Shown in pieces: positions 27,046 through 40,062 of a stretch of DNA of 40,062 nt. The translations under genes were made by a program, and so were the position numbers. Within the stretch, counting starts at the first letter, position 1. Each line of letters starts with the position of its first letter. The notes under the pieces are model-generated. The model was given only the letters and a program-made list of their open reading frames with translations. It searched no databases and was not told the DNA's origin. Origin of the DNA: a virus. Location: positions 1-40,062 of the IMG/VR virus record IMGVR_UViG_3300036832_000868; one strand, written 5' to 3'.

Positions 27046-27231
27046 CTAGCTGTTGTTCGACTTGCCGACGATGTTCGGCTGCAACGGCACGCCGCCTTCG
27101 GGCTTAGGCACAACCTTGGGGATCGCGCCCCACTCGCTGATTTCCGACTGCGTATCGACTTGCAGGATGGTCCGGGGCGGCGTCTCGGGCGGCGCCGTGA
27201 TCGGCGGATCGTAGCTGCGGTTCTGCGCCAT
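27046..27231 (-). CDS. Short polar protein
   Basis: 61 aa from ATG 27231 (MAQNRSYDPPITAPPETPPR); a second ATG two codons upstream is possible. Pro-rich N-terminus, then ILQVDTQSEISEWGAIPKVV. It ends before the scaffold gene and starts after a 22-bp palindrome. Role unknown. Confidence 0.65.
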   Translation of the reverse strand: MAQNRSYDPPITAPPETPPRTILQVDTQSEISEWGAIPKVVPKPEGGVPLQPNIVGKSNNS

Positions 27232-27251
27232 TGTCATGCTCCCTTGGAAGT

Positions 27252-27304
27252 GAGGGCCGGGCGCCCGGCCCTCTATTGACTGTAAACACTCAGAGGATTA
27301 CGTC
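27252..27304. promoter_or_regulatory. 22-bp perfect palindrome next to copy C of the 26-bp motif
   Basis: Positions 27252-27262 and 27263-27273 are perfect reverse complements (GAGGGCCGGGC, GCCCGGCCCTC). Two bases later TTGACT starts the motif copy at 27276-27301, 23 of 26 identical to copy A at 7103. This is one of the few real intergenic gaps (about 66 bp) in the late operon, between the small His-rich ORF and the short polar protein. It could be a terminator or processing hairpin with a regulated re-start. Confidence 0.6.
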
Positions 27305-35249: not shown

Positions 35250-35422
35250 GACTTGCCGCCGCTCTTTTTGCTGTCGACGAAGATTTGCACGGTCGCGCTG
35301 ATTTCGTCGTAGAGCTCGTCGGCGAACTTGTCGCCCTGGCGCTCGTCGTCGATTTCTATGTGCTTGTCGACAACCTCGCGGGCGAGGTCATGGATCATCT
35401 TGTTCACCGTCACGTCGTTCAT
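35246..35422 (-). CDS. Hypothetical 58-aa protein
   Basis: MNDVTVNKMIHDLAREVVDK, acidic helical protein ending DSKKSGGKS. Start overlaps the MarR gene stop (ATGA), stop overlaps the next start (ATGA). Unknown. Confidence 0.72.
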   Translation of the reverse strand: MNDVTVNKMIHDLAREVVDKHIEIDDERQGDKFADELYDEISATVQIFVDSKKSGGKS

Positions 35423-35775
35423 TGTTGCACTCGCTTGTTGATGGCGGCCAAAAGGGCGCGGCCCTTCGCCGTCAGGTAGTGAAGCCGTTCGCGCCGGTTC
35501 ATTGGATTGATGCGCGACTCGATTAAGCCCGCACCTTCGTCGTGGCGCCGGTCGTATTCGCCCAGGTCTTGCAGATGGCGCGACATGGTGGTTTGCGCGA
35601 CGCCCGCCTGTTTGGCGTAGTCGCCGACGGTCAATCCCTCTTTTTGCGCTACAAGCCAGAACGCTTCGCAGGCGCTCACGGTCATCGTCGGTCGGATGTC
35701 GCGGATCAACGGGATTGCGGTTAGCATCGTGCGGATCAGCGGCCTTTGCGCTTCCATGCGCTCAGTGTTTGTCAT
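35419..35775 (-). CDS. MarR-like winged-helix regulator
   Basis: 118 aa from ATG 35775 (MTNTERMEAQRPLIRTMLTA). The winged helix is visible: EAFWLVAQKEGLTVGDYAKQ, AGVAQTTMSRHLQDLGEYDR, a wing with R/H and Asn-Arg-Arg, and YLTAKGRALLAAINKRV at the end, typical of MarR proteins. It is the first gene of the long late operon, right after the promoter at 35808-35836, and probably autoregulates it through the palindrome there. Confidence 0.82.
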   Translation of the reverse strand: MTNTERMEAQRPLIRTMLTAIPLIRDIRPTMTVSACEAFWLVAQKEGLTVGDYAKQAGVAQTTMSRHLQDLGEYDRRHDEGAGLIESRINPMNRRERLHYLTAKGRALLAAINKRVQQ

Positions 35776-35807
35776 CACATTGCAGTCTCCGGTTCGTTGG
35801 ACTGTAG

Positions 35808-35839
35808 CACATAAGGCGAATGTTCCCTCTTGTCAAGAG
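35808..35839 (-). promoter_or_regulatory. Late-operon promoter with palindromic operator
   Basis: On the minus strand: TTGACA (35836-35831), 17 bases, TATGTG (35813-35808), upstream of the MarR-like gene. The palindrome CTCTTG-A-CAAGAG (35827-35839) covers the -35. Strong sigma70-type layout; the operator is a likely target of the MarR-like protein. Confidence 0.72.
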
Positions 35840-35918
35840 CGAGGTAATCCCCTACATGCTTCCCTATCAGCGCAACTGCATCGCCCTCGCGCGGGGCGTC
35901 ATCGTGAAGGAAAAGACC

Positions 35919-36194
35919 ATGAACTATGTCGGCGAGGTTAGAGAATTAGGGCCGCGACCAAGTACGCGCGAACCGTTGAGCGTCATCGTCCAGGCGCCGC
36001 ACGCCCACGACGCGGCGCAGGAGGTCGCGCGGCTTGTCGCGCGCCAATGGTGGGTCGGTGGCGAGCCAAGCTTTATCGCGCAGCAACCGGGCGCCAACAA
36101 TTTCATCGCAGGCGTCGGCGTTCAGGAATGGTGCGAGAGCGGGATCGTCACGCGCGGCTGCTCGATTGCAATCACCGTCCATCCCCGTAATTAG
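35919..36194 (+). CDS. Hypothetical 91-aa protein
   Basis: From ATG 35919 (MNYVGEVRELGPRPSTREPL), with AAGGA upstream. Beta/alpha composition: LSVIVQAPHAHDAAQEVARL, then VARQWWVGGEPSFIAQQPGA. First plus-strand gene of the right arm, divergent from the late operon. A related-looking TTGTCA-17-TACATG pair (35831-35859) may drive it. Not recognised. Confidence 0.7.
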   Translation: MNYVGEVRELGPRPSTREPLSVIVQAPHAHDAAQEVARLVARQWWVGGEPSFIAQQPGANNFIAGVGVQEWCESGIVTRGCSIAITVHPRN

Positions 36195-36254
36195 GCCATT
36201 TTTGTTCTGTGAAATTTTTGAGAAAATGCTCGCAAAAATGTCATCTTGTGAGTG

Positions 36255-36313
36255 TTGACAGTATGTACTGCATATGGCATAATATGCAGATGGTGGGGCA
36301 TAAGGCCGCCACC
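36255..36313 (+). promoter_or_regulatory. Promoter, operator and leader hairpin of the 36334 operon
   Basis: TTGACA (36255-36260), 17 bases, CATAAT (36278-36283). A perfect palindrome CTGCATAT-ggcata-ATATGCAG (36268-36289) covers the -10. Downstream GGTGG (36292-36296) and CCACC (36309-36313) form a leader hairpin, then GGCAACTTAGGAAAACGAC leads to the ATG at 36334, resembling the leaders of the next operons. Confidence 0.75.
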
Positions 36314-36333
36314 GGCAACTTAGGAAAACGACA

Positions 36334-36993
36334 ATGACAGACGAAACGGAAGAACTTGACGAAGGCCGCGCCAACGCAATCGACGCGGAAGCGGAGGCCG
36401 CAACAGAGCGGATCAAGAAAGGCCAGCATTGGGACGATTGGGTAAAGGTCTCAGTTGGCTTCGGCGAAGGGCGCCGCTACGCGATGCACAAGTCGGGCAT
36501 GAACCGCCCGGTCGGTACCGGCTACAACAAAGCCTTTTCCGGCTGGATGGACGCGCGGCCCTGGACGCGTGAACACGCGCAATCGGTGCGCAATCATTGC
36601 CTTTGGGTTGCCGAGAACCTTCCGGCGTTGCAGGCATTCCGCGAGACGATGGCGAGCAACGTGCGCGAACTCGCCAACCATCCGACAACGATGAAACGCC
36701 GTTGGGACAAGGAACACAAAAAGGAAGGCGAGGGCAAGCCGCGCAAGAACACGACGCAAGAGCTGAACGAAAGCCTAGCCAAGCTGGACGACGAAAACAA
36801 CACGCTCAAAAAGCAGCTCGAAAAGGCGAAGGCCGTCGAGGAAGCGCCGTTCAATCTCAGGACCGATAGCGTCAAAATGATCGTTGACGTGATTGCGTCG
36901 GAGGTAACGCAGCATCGGCTTGCGGAGCTGGCGAAGGCGCTCACTGCGGAAGCTTCGCGCCGCGCCAAGATTAAGAACGGGAGGGCGGCATGA
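36334..36993 (+). CDS. Hypothetical 219-aa coiled-coil protein
   Basis: MTDETEELDEGRANAIDAEA is acidic; then GQHWDDWVKVSVGFGEGRRY, an aromatic middle with FSGWMDARPWTREHAQSVRN, basic KKEGEGKPRKNTTQELNESL, a coiled coil about residues 147-170 and a C-terminal helical region. The order resembles plasmid/phage proteins with DNA-binding and coiled-coil parts, but I cannot assign a family. It ends coupled to the next gene by ATGA. Confidence 0.72.
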   Translation: MTDETEELDEGRANAIDAEAEAATERIKKGQHWDDWVKVSVGFGEGRRYAMHKSGMNRPVGTGYNKAFSGWMDARPWTREHAQSVRNHCLWVAENLPALQAFRETMASNVRELANHPTTMKRRWDKEHKKEGEGKPRKNTTQELNESLAKLDDENNTLKKQLEKAKAVEEAPFNLRTDSVKMIVDVIASEVTQHRLAELAKALTAEASRRAKIKNGRAA

Positions 36994-37301
36994 GCTGGTC
37001 GTTTTGGAAACGCTCTGCGGTCAATGCGTTTACGATTACAGCGGAAGATTGGGCGAGCTACAAAGACACAGCGCGCCAGATCGGCAACGTCACCGGAGGC
37101 TTGTTCTTTCTCCTGATCGTGGTCGCAGTGATCTGCAATGTGATCGATGGACAGCCGAAACGAGACGACCATGAACTCAAGGTCTGTGAAGCGATGGAAG
37201 CAATGGACAGAGCGCACCTAAGCGACGATTGCCGCCGTCTAATGGCGGAGGCCCTTGTTCGCGCAAACGAGGAATACGAAGCGGCGCACAAACGGCCTTG
37301 A
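36990..37301 (+). CDS. Single-TM hypothetical protein
   Basis: 103 aa: MSWSFWKRSAVNAFTITAED, TM segment about 33-51 (GNVTGGLFFLLIVVAVICNV), then a charged helical domain (DDHELKVCEAMEAMDRAHLS). N-in or N-out topology unknown. Its TGA stop overlaps the -35 box of the following promoter. Confidence 0.7.
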   Translation: MSWSFWKRSAVNAFTITAEDWASYKDTARQIGNVTGGLFFLLIVVAVICNVIDGQPKRDDHELKVCEAMEAMDRAHLSDDCRRLMAEALVRANEEYEAAHKRP

Positions 37302-37343
37302 CAAGCGACTGCCCGGTAACTATGTAGACAGTTACCGGGCAGT
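37298..37343 (+). promoter_or_regulatory. Promoter with 14-bp dyad over the -10
   Basis: TTGACA (37298-37303; contains the TGA stop of the preceding gene), 17 bases, TATGTA (37321-37326). ACTGCCCGGTAACT (37308-37321) and AGTTACCGGGCAGT (37330-37343) are perfect inverted arms around an 8-base loop that includes most of the -10. It can act as an operator or, in RNA, as a leader hairpin. The leader AACTAGGGAAAGATGAC follows at 37361-37377. Confidence 0.8.
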
Positions 37344-37379
37344 CCGCCCGGAAACAACCCAACTAGGGAAAGATGACAA

Positions 37380-37880
37380 ATGCAAAAGCCCGAAATTCTC
37401 AGAGGCCACGTCTCGCCGGAGACAGCCTATGTCGTGGATGATTACCCCTACGGCTACAAACTGCGATGCACAATCCGCTATTGGCTCGAACACAAGCCTA
37501 AGCTCGGCTTTCGGCTCATGTCGCAAACGACCGATCCGCGCCACGGCGGACGATGGAACAAGCCAAAGGCCGGAACCTACGCCAAGTTTGGCGCTTGCCT
37601 GTACCTCGCCGACAACGGCCATGTTCGCTGCGCCGCGCTGACCGAATATTGCAACGGCAAGGAAGCTAAGGAATGGTCGGATCGTTGGCGCGACGGCGTT
37701 CCTGCGGTCGGCCTCGAGTTGCTAGATCGATGGGTGGCGGCAAAGGTCGCCTACGATGCAAACCGCAAACAGAGTGATCCTCTGTCTGTCGGATTGCCGC
37801 AAGCGCGCGCTGCGTTCGTGTCGGCAACGCGTGAACTCAGCGAAGGCCGCACGTTCGACGAAAACGATGGGGGCGAATAA
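37380..37880 (+). CDS. Hypothetical 166-aa protein
   Basis: MQKPEILRGHVSPETAYVVD; globular, with WLEHKPKLGFRLMSQTTDPR, KPKAGTYAKFGACLYLADNG and a helical C-terminus. Proteins with this look accompany DUF932 genes on phages and plasmids (recollection). Own promoter and leader. Unknown function. Confidence 0.72.
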   Translation: MQKPEILRGHVSPETAYVVDDYPYGYKLRCTIRYWLEHKPKLGFRLMSQTTDPRHGGRWNKPKAGTYAKFGACLYLADNGHVRCAALTEYCNGKEAKEWSDRWRDGVPAVGLELLDRWVAAKVAYDANRKQSDPLSVGLPQARAAFVSATRELSEGRTFDENDGGE

Positions 37881-38090
37881 ATGCCGCTCCACATGCAAAC
37901 CAATCCAAACGACCGCGTTGCGTGCGAGGATTGCGGCTGGAAAGGAACGGCGCGCGAACTCGGCTCGATTAGCGATTTTGCCGAACGCGTGTTTCCCGGC
38001 GAGATTTGCCCGGCTGGCGAGTGTCCCGATTGCGGCGCCCTTGCGCATCTGGATTTTTCGCCAGCAATAAAAATTGTCGCGGCCTCTTGA
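37881..38090 (+). CDS. Zinc-ribbon protein
   Basis: 69 aa directly after the previous TAA. C15-x2-C18 (CEDCGW) and C43/C48-x2-C51 (CPAGECPDCG) form a zinc ribbon. Own stop TGA lies inside the -35 box of the next promoter. Probably regulatory or DNA-binding. Confidence 0.75.
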   Translation: MPLHMQTNPNDRVACEDCGWKGTARELGSISDFAERVFPGEICPAGECPDCGALAHLDFSPAIKIVAAS

Positions 38091-38200
38091 CTGTCTCGAT
38101 GTAACTCTCTATATGATTACCAATCGGCGGCGCCCTAATCCGCTGACGCTCTTTCGCACGATGGAAACTGCGGGCGAACATGCAATAGGGGCGCCGCCGA
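38087..38200 (+). promoter_or_regulatory. Promoter and long leader hairpin of the 38226 gene
   Basis: TTGACT (38087-38092; overlaps the TGA stop), 17 bases, TATATG (38110-38115). TCGGCGGCGCCC (38124-38135) pairs with GGGCGCCGCCGA (38189-38200), a 12-bp stem enclosing 53 bases. Then GCAACTAGGGAAATATGAC (38212-38230) leads into ATG 38226 or 38232. Confidence 0.8.
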
Positions 38201-38225
38201 CTAAACGCAACGCAACTAGGGAAAT

Positions 38226-38771
38226 ATGACAATGGACGCAATCGTGAAAACCAAAGGACTGGACGCAATCGAACTCGCGGCCTTGCGCAAGGCCGATTGT
38301 GTGTCGTTTCACCACCACAGACTTAAAACTGTCGCTGAGACTGGCGGCGCCGCCTCGTTTATCCGCGCCACCAAAGAATTTCGCCAGTCGAAAAGCAATC
38401 CGTTCGGCAAAACAGAGGCCGCGCTAGAAATCAGCGTCGGCGCGCGTTTGACGGAATACACGCGCGGAGATGACGCAATCCCCTACGAAGCGCGCAACGA
38501 AGCTGGCGACTATGCGGCCTTCGAAATGATCCACGCGGCGCAGTTTGATGATGTATGGAAAAGCATCGTTGCGCTGTTGCGCGTCGGCGATGAATTGACG
38601 CTGCATTGGCGTCGAGGCGCGTTCACAACAGACGCGATGCAAGAGGCGTCGCCAAAATTCTATGGCGACCAACTCTTGTTGCAAGTCGACCGTGGCGACA
38701 AGCGGCTAACGTTCATGGTCGACATGTCTGTGACGGAAAACAACACAGCTCGCATGATCCGGCGAGCCTAA
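38226..38771 (+). CDS. Hypothetical 181-aa protein
   Basis: The leader supports ATG 38226 (MTMDAIVKTKGLDAIELAAL); MDAIVK at 38232 is also possible. Mixed alpha/beta: KADCVSFHHHRLKTVAETGG, EFRQSKSNPFGKTEAALEIS, YAAFEMIHAAQFDDVWKSIV, and a beta C-terminus ending MSVTENNTARMIRRA. Not recognised. Own promoter and leader. Confidence 0.72.
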   Translation: MTMDAIVKTKGLDAIELAALRKADCVSFHHHRLKTVAETGGAASFIRATKEFRQSKSNPFGKTEAALEISVGARLTEYTRGDDAIPYEARNEAGDYAAFEMIHAAQFDDVWKSIVALLRVGDELTLHWRRGAFTTDAMQEASPKFYGDQLLLQVDRGDKRLTFMVDMSVTENNTARMIRRA

Positions 38772-38778
38772 CGAAAAT

Positions 38779-38822
38779 GTAATCCTCTAGGGGTTGACAT
38801 TCCACGGCCCCTAGACTATCTT
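38779..38822 (+). promoter_or_regulatory. Copy D of the 26-bp motif with promoter
   Basis: GTAATCCTCTAGGGG starts the motif (38779-38804). TTGACA (38794-38799), 17 bases, TATCTT (38817-38822) form a strong promoter for the DUF932 gene, the motif overlying its -35 box. A short hairpin ATGGCG-cgt-CGCCAT follows at about 38834-38848, then GCAACTAGGGAAATATGAC before the start. Confidence 0.75.
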
Positions 38823-38867
38823 TCGAATTGTGGATGGCGCGTCGCCATTCACTGCAACTAGGGAAAT

Positions 38868-39926
38868 ATGACGATGGCACACAATCTTGAAATCCGAGAC
38901 GGCAAATATTCCTTCGCGTTCACTGGCGACCGCGATGCAATCTGGCACCGCCTAGGCCAGCAACTTCCCGCCGACGCGTCACGCGCCGAGTGGATCGCGG
39001 CATCTGGCTTTGACTATCACGTGGAAAAGGTCCCGGCGATTGCGTCACTCAATGGCGACGCGTTCAATCATCTGGCGCCGGAAAAGCGCTTCGTTGAAAC
39101 CGACAAGCGCTTTCTCGCGCGCCAGGACAATGGCCACATTCTCGGCATTGCTGGCGAAGGCTACCAGCCTGTCCAGCCGGCCGACATTTGGGCTTGGTTT
39201 GAAAACTACATCACCGTGGATGACCGCTTCCACATAGACGCGGCTGGCGTGCTTTCGTCCGGCGAGCGCCTATGGATGACGGCGCGGTTCAATGGCGACC
39301 AAACGGTGGCTGGCGACCGCCATGTGGCGCGCCTTCTCATGTCGACAAGCTTTGACGCGTCGCAGGCAACGCGCAACGAAGCCACCATGACGCGCGTGGT
39401 CTGTCAAAACACGTTGCGCGCCGCGCATATGAGCGCAAAGGCGCTAATCAAGACGCGCCACAACACGCGCTTTGACGGAAAATCCGTTGCGCGCGAACTG
39501 TCGCAAATTGCATCATCGTTCGCCGAGTTCAAGGCAATGGGTGACGCGATGGCGCAAGTGGAGCTGTCGCGCGTTCAGGTTCAATCGTTCTTCGCCGAAC
39601 TTTTGGACATTCCAGCCGACGCAAAGGCCGCCGACATTTCGACGCGCAAGCGCAACATCGCACAGGAGCTTGTCGGCGCCTACAACGTCACGAAACGCGA
39701 GCGGAACACAGACCGCGATGACGTTTGGAGCGCGTTGCAGGCAGTGACGCGCTACGTCGACCATGATCGCAGCGTGCGCAATGCCGACAACGAAGCTATC
39801 GGCCGGTTCGATAGCGGCACGTTCGGGTCGGGCGACGCGATGAAAGGCAAGGCGCTAAACATGCTTTTGCCGATGGTCGACGCGAGCTTGTTCCGACGCG
39901 ACAAGGTTCTCATTGCTGCGGATTGA
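38868..39926 (+). CDS. DUF932 phage/plasmid-like protein
   Basis: 352 aa; ATG 38868, or 38874 (MAHNLEIRDGKYSFAFTGDR). GDRDAIWHRLGQQLPADASR, then GFDYHVEKVPAIA, HILGIAGEGYQPVQPADIWA and the core VAGDRHVARLLMSTSFDASQ, ATRNEATMTRVVCQNTLRAA match the DUF932 family (phage/plasmid-like protein TIGR03299). Members are widespread on mobile elements; their molecular role is not established. Own promoter and leader, followed by a hairpin. Confidence 0.88.
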   Translation: MTMAHNLEIRDGKYSFAFTGDRDAIWHRLGQQLPADASRAEWIAASGFDYHVEKVPAIASLNGDAFNHLAPEKRFVETDKRFLARQDNGHILGIAGEGYQPVQPADIWAWFENYITVDDRFHIDAAGVLSSGERLWMTARFNGDQTVAGDRHVARLLMSTSFDASQATRNEATMTRVVCQNTLRAAHMSAKALIKTRHNTRFDGKSVARELSQIASSFAEFKAMGDAMAQVELSRVQVQSFFAELLDIPADAKAADISTRKRNIAQELVGAYNVTKRERNTDRDDVWSALQAVTRYVDHDRSVRNADNEAIGRFDSGTFGSGDAMKGKALNMLLPMVDASLFRRDKVLIAAD

Positions 39927-39948
39927 TCCCTAGCAAGTCGCAGCATGG

Positions 39949-39976
39949 CGGCGCCCGTTCTAGCGCACGGGCGCCG
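39949..39976 (+). terminator. Hairpin after DUF932 gene
   Basis: CGGCGCCCGT (39949-39958), 8-base loop, ACGGGCGCCG (39967-39976), then TCTCCCTCCC, a pyrimidine but not pure T tract. Likely transcription end for the right-arm operon. Confidence 0.65.
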
Positions 39977-40007
39977 TCTCCCTCCCTTCGAGAGGCCGAA
40001 GGCCGAT

Positions 40008-40062
40008 CCGTTTTTCACCCGTCGCCCGTGTCGTTAGGTCTCGAGCGGCCTCAAGTAAAGGA
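40008..40062 (-). repeat. 55-bp repeat, inverted copy of 7037-7091, at the end of the window
   Basis: Exact reverse complement of 7037-7091 over 55 bases, ending at the last base of the window. See the partner entry for interpretation. Confidence 0.9.

Follow-up and report, generated by a model that had tools for sequence, protein, structure and literature searches.

Four right-arm genes of a 40,062-base virus record (IMGVR_UViG_3300036832_000868), which we analysed over its whole length as the window and which is described as a soil phage, are each preceded by a compact unit that combines a sigma-70-type promoter, a stem-loop at the predicted transcription start (+1) and a ribosome-binding leader. 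All four stem bases lie where +1 is expected, 36-37 nt downstream of the initial T of the -35 hexamer, and neither the stems nor their loops have any sequence in common. The architecture recurs in relatives of the phage, in which the position of the stem is retained and its sequence and the gene behind it change. We see about an even chance that these units are portable cassettes whose 5'-terminal stem-loop shields the mRNA from decay that depends on its 5' end.

All elements of the four units are on the plus strand; hairpins were found by folding from the predicted +1, and offsets are counted from the first T of TTGAC. Unit 1 consists of the promoter TTGACA-17-CATAAT (36255..36283), the hairpin GGTGGGGC-ATAAG-GCCgCCACC (36292..36313; offset 37) and a diverged leader copy, AACTTAGGAAAACGAC (36317..36332). 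Unit 2 has TTGACA-17-TATGTA (37298..37326), the hairpin CCGGGC-AGTCC-GCCCGG (37335..37351; offset 37) and the leader AACTAGGGAAAGATGAC (37361..37377). In unit 3, TTGACT-17-TATATG (38087..38115, re-anchored at 38087) precedes a 14-bp stem with one bulge and a long loop, TCGGCGGCGCCCTA...TAGgGGCGCCGCCGA (38124..38200; offset 37), and the leader AACTAGGGAAATATGAC (38214..38230), which unit 4 repeats (38856..38872) behind TTGACA-17-TATCTT (38794..38822) and the hairpin GTGGATGGCG-CGT-CGCCATTCAC (38830..38852; 10 bp including one G-U pair; offset 36). Thus, the four promoter-hairpin-leader units proposed by the initial annotation are present at 36255, 37298, 38087 and 38794, with some revision of their parts. 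Its TTGAC[A/T]-17-TATAAT-like promoters were all found, with just those at 36255 and 38794 passing a strict consensus scan; the inverted repeats that it assigned to the 5' leaders prove to lie over the promoter in units 1 and 2, and transcribed hairpins are predicted at all four; and where it reported ATGGCG/CGCCAT in unit 4, there is indeed a stem, longer than proposed. The promoters alone are unremarkable because the region 35700-40062 holds 3 promoter-like sites versus 1.6 in shuffles, and two of the four pass the strict scan. A +1 hairpin is absent at the window's divergent regulator promoter (minus strand, 35836).

The fixed position of the stem was examined across related loci by an automatic scan. 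To count as a unit, a stretch had to contain TTGAC, a -10-like hexamer spaced 16-18 nt from it and, further on, a start codon that has a Shine-Dalgarno sequence and opens a reading frame of at least 50 codons. Pieces of the window itself (L001-L003), duplicate contigs, and the near-identical L013, L014 and L018 were left out of the counts, and the scan, together with its unfiltered and permuted-word versions, covered loci below L079. It returned 93 units in 58 loci, 48 of them with a perfect hairpin of at least 5 pairs. The hairpin starts at offset 33-39 in 26 of the 93, compared with 2.8 in shuffled leaders (maximum 8 in 100 runs), and the excess is steeper for stronger stems (19 versus 0.8) and for stem scores of at least 18 (17 versus 0.3, maximum 2). 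With six permuted -35 words there was no peak, 7 of 112 units falling at offset 33-39 compared with 26 of 93 for TTGAC, and after similar units were merged 17 of 33 clusters still fell at this offset. The layout sets this group of phages apart: 21 of its 73 units carry the hairpin at +1, whereas none of the 10 units from lambda, BPP-1, 16-3 and D3 does; among loci with homologues of the window gene at 37380 only 1 of 16 does, the leaders there being mostly without a +1 hairpin. When folds from offset 29 were judged by reading in ten contigs (the window, L004, L005, L006, L007, L009, L010, L042, L044 and L076), 28 of 31 right-arm promoters had a substantial hairpin near the predicted +1. The scanned stretches beyond the right arm contain few promoter-like sites, and none of these has a +1 hairpin. 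When the DUF932 leaders of seven named phages were folded, no clean common pattern emerged: on visual inspection, a hairpin directly follows a -10-like hexamer in DSL-LC04 (L084) and ACP17 (L083) but not in X1 (L081) and Moby (L082). Fold z-scores averaged -2.29, with 25 of 41 below -1.5 after one further entry was removed as a duplicate, and are no proof of leader structure as the folded stretches include promoter DNA.

Several of these +1 hairpins share features beyond their position. A hexaloop AATNWY tops +1 hairpins with differing stems, several of them orthologous, in L005, L006, L007, L009, L010, L011, L035 and L052, and is found nowhere in the window; TTGAC lies 31-39 nt upstream of 6 of 11 AATNWY hairpins, compared with 17 of the 1648 whose 6-nt loop is different. 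A near-identical 12-15-bp +1 hairpin recurs at L007 6133, L009 6400 and L076 4633, and the products encoded behind the first two (77 and 61 aa) do not match each other.

The stems evolve in a manner that conserves pairing rather than sequence. The alignment of six orthologous DUF932 leaders has 98.3% of its cells paired and 4 of 10 pairs altered on both sides, with 8 double-change cells versus 2.3 in shuffles and a covariation score reached in 0 of 500 shuffles; L004 and L042, misaligned among nine, and L044, with a loop one base shorter, were dropped from this set. Within a genome, the stems are the freest part of the unit: in five genomes, leader identity ranges from 0.55 to 0.76 and stem-arm identity from 0.23 to 0.37. 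Homologues of the window gene at 38232 in L042 (50% identity) and L044 (49%) likewise have hairpins unlike the window's and also near +1. The combination of a constant +1 position with free sequence argues for a role of the RNA 5' end itself.

The cargo changes as well. The promoter unit behind the homologue of the gene at 36334 occupies the same place in 8 of 9 relatives (not L004), and the genes that it drives encode 166 aa in the window, 70 in L005, 72 in L006, 138 in L007, 78 in L009 and 86 in L010, with a short C-terminal match between L007 and L009 as the sole similarity among the six. With a promoter that stays in place as its gene changes, the unit acts like a cassette whose cargo can be exchanged. 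Such behaviour would also be expected of a PeSL-like recombination cassette, in which the stem-loop acts as a terminator or insulator against upstream transcription and is spread by gene-shuffling recombination, and T-tails on some relatives' stems (for example, L006 7917 and L055 7143) point the same way. We regard this alternative as unlikely: a terminator at +1 would halt the cassette's own transcript, and the stems, which would need likeness for recombination, are the least similar part of the unit. None of the four window stems has a T-tail, and the terminator-like matches in 35700-40062, which come from a sequence test only, include none of them. Changing cargo behind a conserved unit would equally suit a leader insulator, that is, an upstream stem that keeps the ribosome-binding site unpaired and expression independent of context. 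The Shine-Dalgarno region is indeed single-stranded in the window folds, lying outside the stem and pairing no more than weakly, over 3 bp, in leader 2; insulation would not, however, require a start at +1, the most constant property of the stems, and we consider it quite improbable.

The inverted repeats over the promoters form a distinct class. Dyad 1 (36268..36289) covers the -10 of promoter 1 with 8-bp arms and a 6-bp spacer (CTGCATAT-6-ATATGCAG), and dyad 2 (37307..37344) is centred on the -10 of promoter 2 with 15-bp perfect arms and an 8-bp spacer. Because their left arms lie in the promoter spacer, 5' of the predicted start, and would not be transcribed, both appear to be operator-like DNA rather than leader RNA. 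At promoter 2, the dyad's right arm also supplies the 5' arm of the transcribed hairpin, and the same overlap occurs at L007 7103. Long perfect dyads centred at or upstream of the -10 are found in 8 of 77 units, where shuffles give 0.62; of these eight, the one in L044 (minus strand) resembles a terminator. Perfect dyads with 11-15-bp arms sit on the -10 at 37307-37344 in the window and at L007 7103, L009 7319, L010 7083 and L005 7116; the half-sites of the four relatives are related (GCCTGTCATGT, GCCCGTCAACT), an arm in the window is similar (GCCCGGTAACT), and the dyad spacing is identical in the relatives and 3 bp longer in the window. From their sequence and placement, the -10-centred dyads are probably the operator of a co-evolving phage regulator. 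Extending this explanation to the whole unit, with the inverted repeats serving as sites for dimeric regulators close to the start and the hairpin in the RNA as a by-product, is likely correct for the promoter dyads themselves and very unlikely for the +1 stems, which differ at every gene within a genome and have short loops, in contrast to the common site that a common regulator needs; moreover, L007 7103 carries a dyad plus a separate hairpin. The promoter-centred dyads are best read as a module separate from the +1 stems.

The third component, the leader, is repeated within genomes and replaced between them. The sequence AACTAGGGAAANATGAC occurs in three exact copies in the window (37361, 38214 and 38856), with no other site at up to 3 mismatches, compared with a mean of 0.09 and a maximum of 1 in 100 shuffles. 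The near-identity of all four leaders claimed at the outset therefore applies to three, the first having diverged; leaders 3 and 4 do agree at 23 of 25 bases, as had been noted. Conservation of the leader across relatives was considered and rejected: the window's sequence was not found in L004-L021, which keep the DUF932 gene. L054 has a similar stretch, GCTAGGGAAACACATC, ahead of its DUF932 start, and L005, L006, L007, L009, L042, L044 and L076 each have a repeat of their own, GGAAGGCAAANCC or near it, before start codons. Absence of the leader from relatives that retain the genes, which the initial annotation had named as evidence against its proposal, is thus real for the sequence and not for the layout, as several relatives keep the architecture with their own repeats. 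Across relatives, on the sequences compared, the architecture survives and the leader sequence does not, and the idea of a modular unit with a shared leader and variable structured parts is upheld by its recurrence there.

The coordinated translational control that had been attached to this idea is not supported, in that the Shine-Dalgarno sequence is not in the stem and what is constant is the position of the stem relative to the promoter rather than its sequence or its distance from the start codon. The early host-takeover role that had been proposed for the four genes is likewise unsupported, their products having no known function. In a broader form, with the hairpin and the repeated leader as a regulatory element through which a factor from phage or host adjusts initiation at the four genes together, translational control would account for a leader repeat that extends past the Shine-Dalgarno core in the window and relatives, as in the SAS elements discussed below, and for the recurrent hexaloop of some lineages. 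It would leave unexplained why window stems and loops share no sequence and why the Shine-Dalgarno is unsequestered, and a binding site has no need of +1; we hold it to be rather unlikely.

We therefore return to the 5'-terminal shield. Under this model, right-arm non-structural genes of the phage and its relatives would be expressed from self-contained cassettes, each comprising a sigma-70-type promoter, in some cases overlaid at the -10 by an operator-like dyad, then a stem-loop rich in GC at +1, and a genome-specific ribosome-binding leader. The stem-loop would place the 5' triphosphate end in or beside a helix, and a helix at this position would most likely slow decay via the RppH pyrophosphohydrolase, 5' sensing by RNase E, and RNase J, thereby making short messages long-lived whichever gene follows. 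Stabilization by 5' structure would be expected because RppH and RNase E require single-stranded 5' ends, and structure at the 5' end stabilizes mRNA, according to the relevant passages of PMC3997798. The sequences themselves show the anatomy of the units, the place of the stem relative to the -35, the covariation of orthologous stems, their dissimilarity within a genome and the turnover of the gene behind them; where transcription really begins, how the stem affects RNA half-life and which host is involved we infer.

Several observations weigh against this model. The +1 itself rests on the predicted promoter position, and in several relatives the stem has an offset of 29-33, which puts its first bases ahead of the nominal start, and would therefore be partly untranscribed if that start is right. 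When all 1564 TTGAC words were scanned without filters, there was a weak excess that three permuted words exceeded, as would be expected if most TTGAC words are no promoters, and the promoter and gene-start filters were adopted after this result was known. The set of control phages is small (10 units); 3 of the 31 right-arm promoters judged by reading lack a good stem (L004 5818, L009 7319 and L010 7083); some stems are followed by 4-5 T (L006, L007, L009 and L055) and look terminator-like; and simple end protection has no need of the AAUNWY hexaloop of some lineages. More tentatively still, the 5' hairpin may be a portable 'structural cap' of a group of DUF932-carrying tailed phages, in which case nearly every transcript of an accessory or early-arm cassette would start in a freely drifting stem and escape host 5'-end-dependent decay whatever its gene, with the AAUNWY loop of some lineages perhaps recognized by a protein; this reading is possible, if doubtful.

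In the window, the structural genes (terminase, head and tail) are read from the minus strand; the left side holds plus-strand replication genes (helicase and an Erf-like annealing protein). Beyond a MarR-like regulator (35419-35778, minus strand; phrog_9665), the right end carries plus-strand genes at 36334, 36990, 37380, 37881, 38226 and 38868, whose products belong to DUF932/phrog_1221, to phrog_27970 or to no family, none having a known function. The gene of unit 1 (36334..36993, +) encodes 219 aa with no family above the cut-off and has homologues in 9 of 9 close relatives; that of unit 2 (37380..37880, +; 166 aa, no family) has relatives in other phage contigs. The last two, a phrog_27970 gene of unknown function (38232..38771, +) and the DUF932/phrog_1221 gene (38874..39926, +), belong to open reading frames that open at 38226 and 38868, the starts first assigned to them. 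Their true starts are probably 38232 and 38874, because the DUF932 start ATGGCACACAA is kept in relatives and the upstream ATGs lie too near AGGG, just 4 nt past it. At the DNA level, the window matched none of the named phages among 50,697 phage records; relatives are present among IMG/VR contigs, and the terminase was 83-86% identical to the window's in 8 of 8 relatives tested. Stx-converting phages gave weak terminase matches and lie outside the locus set. A genome scan for the host gave no result, and a database scan with the 36334 and 38226 proteins found no relatives, their homologues being recovered by tblastn inside the relatives. Rfam 15 gave 0 matches at the gathering score for the window and six relatives. 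With E values up to 5, the region 35700-40062 matched just a snoRNA (E 4.2) and, below its cut-off, 6C (39912-39982; 34.4 bits versus 47), the latter over a GC-rich hairpin (39949-39976) past the DUF932 gene that is likely a plain strong hairpin or terminator. Elsewhere in the window, an 11-bp perfect palindrome followed by AAGGGAGCATGACAATGG (27231-27273, minus strand) lies ahead of the gene at 27237 (minus strand) and resembles the right-arm leaders, yet has no TTGAC promoter.

If the shield model is correct, a sequence-independent signature, in which the stem base follows the first T of the -35 by ~36 nt, would find accessory and early phage genes through promoter grammar instead of protein similarity, and structural protection of mRNA 5' ends by phages against RppH, RNase E and RNase J would be directly testable. 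Constant position, changing stem and changing cargo together amount to a natural experiment on the purpose of a leader hairpin.

Among known systems, Escherichia coli ompA and papA are said to carry 5'-terminal stem-loops that stabilize their mRNAs (reportedly the work of Emory, Bouvet and Belasco in 1992). The phage stems resemble these in lying at or near the extreme 5' end, here relative to the predicted +1, in having unrelated sequences, with pairing favoured over sequence by covariation in the six orthologous leaders, and in leaving a free ribosome-binding site downstream. Unlike ompA and papA, which are single host genes, the phage stem is repeated, with a new sequence for each gene and a position fixed by the promoter. 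PeSL elements of T4-type phages, reportedly described by Arbiol in 2010 and Comeau in 2014, have stem-loops that are terminators. The units described here are like them in repeating a sigma-70-like promoter followed by a stem-loop at the boundaries of small variable genes, tied to gene shuffling; they differ in that the four window stems start at +1, have unit-specific sequence and do not look like terminators, a role to which the 4-5 T after some relatives' stems come closer. PeSL elements are cited in PMC4503421. In cluster K mycobacteriophages, the passages of PMC3203893 on SAS describe one 13-bp motif, GGGATAGGAGCCC, present in 11-19 copies a few bases before start codons, a repeated Shine-Dalgarno-containing leader confined to the non-structural half; about half of the copies have upstream inverted repeats, the ESAS, which are 17 bp long with an arm consensus within the genome (SAS and ESAS are also treated in PMC12699233). 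Measured against these passages, our units share a repeated Shine-Dalgarno leader before starts in the non-structural half and differ in that the leader is genome-specific, with 3-4 copies, and the repeat keeps a fixed place relative to the promoter; the repeated sequence is AACTAGGGAAANATGAC rather than the SAS motif, and the stem arms, 23-37% alike, have no consensus of the ESAS kind. A literature search found no account of phage promoters in which hairpins at +1 recur, weak evidence as most subscription papers lay outside it. The layout is real and conserved, and its nearest kinds are the 5'-terminal stabilizers, the PeSL cassettes and SAS/ESAS.

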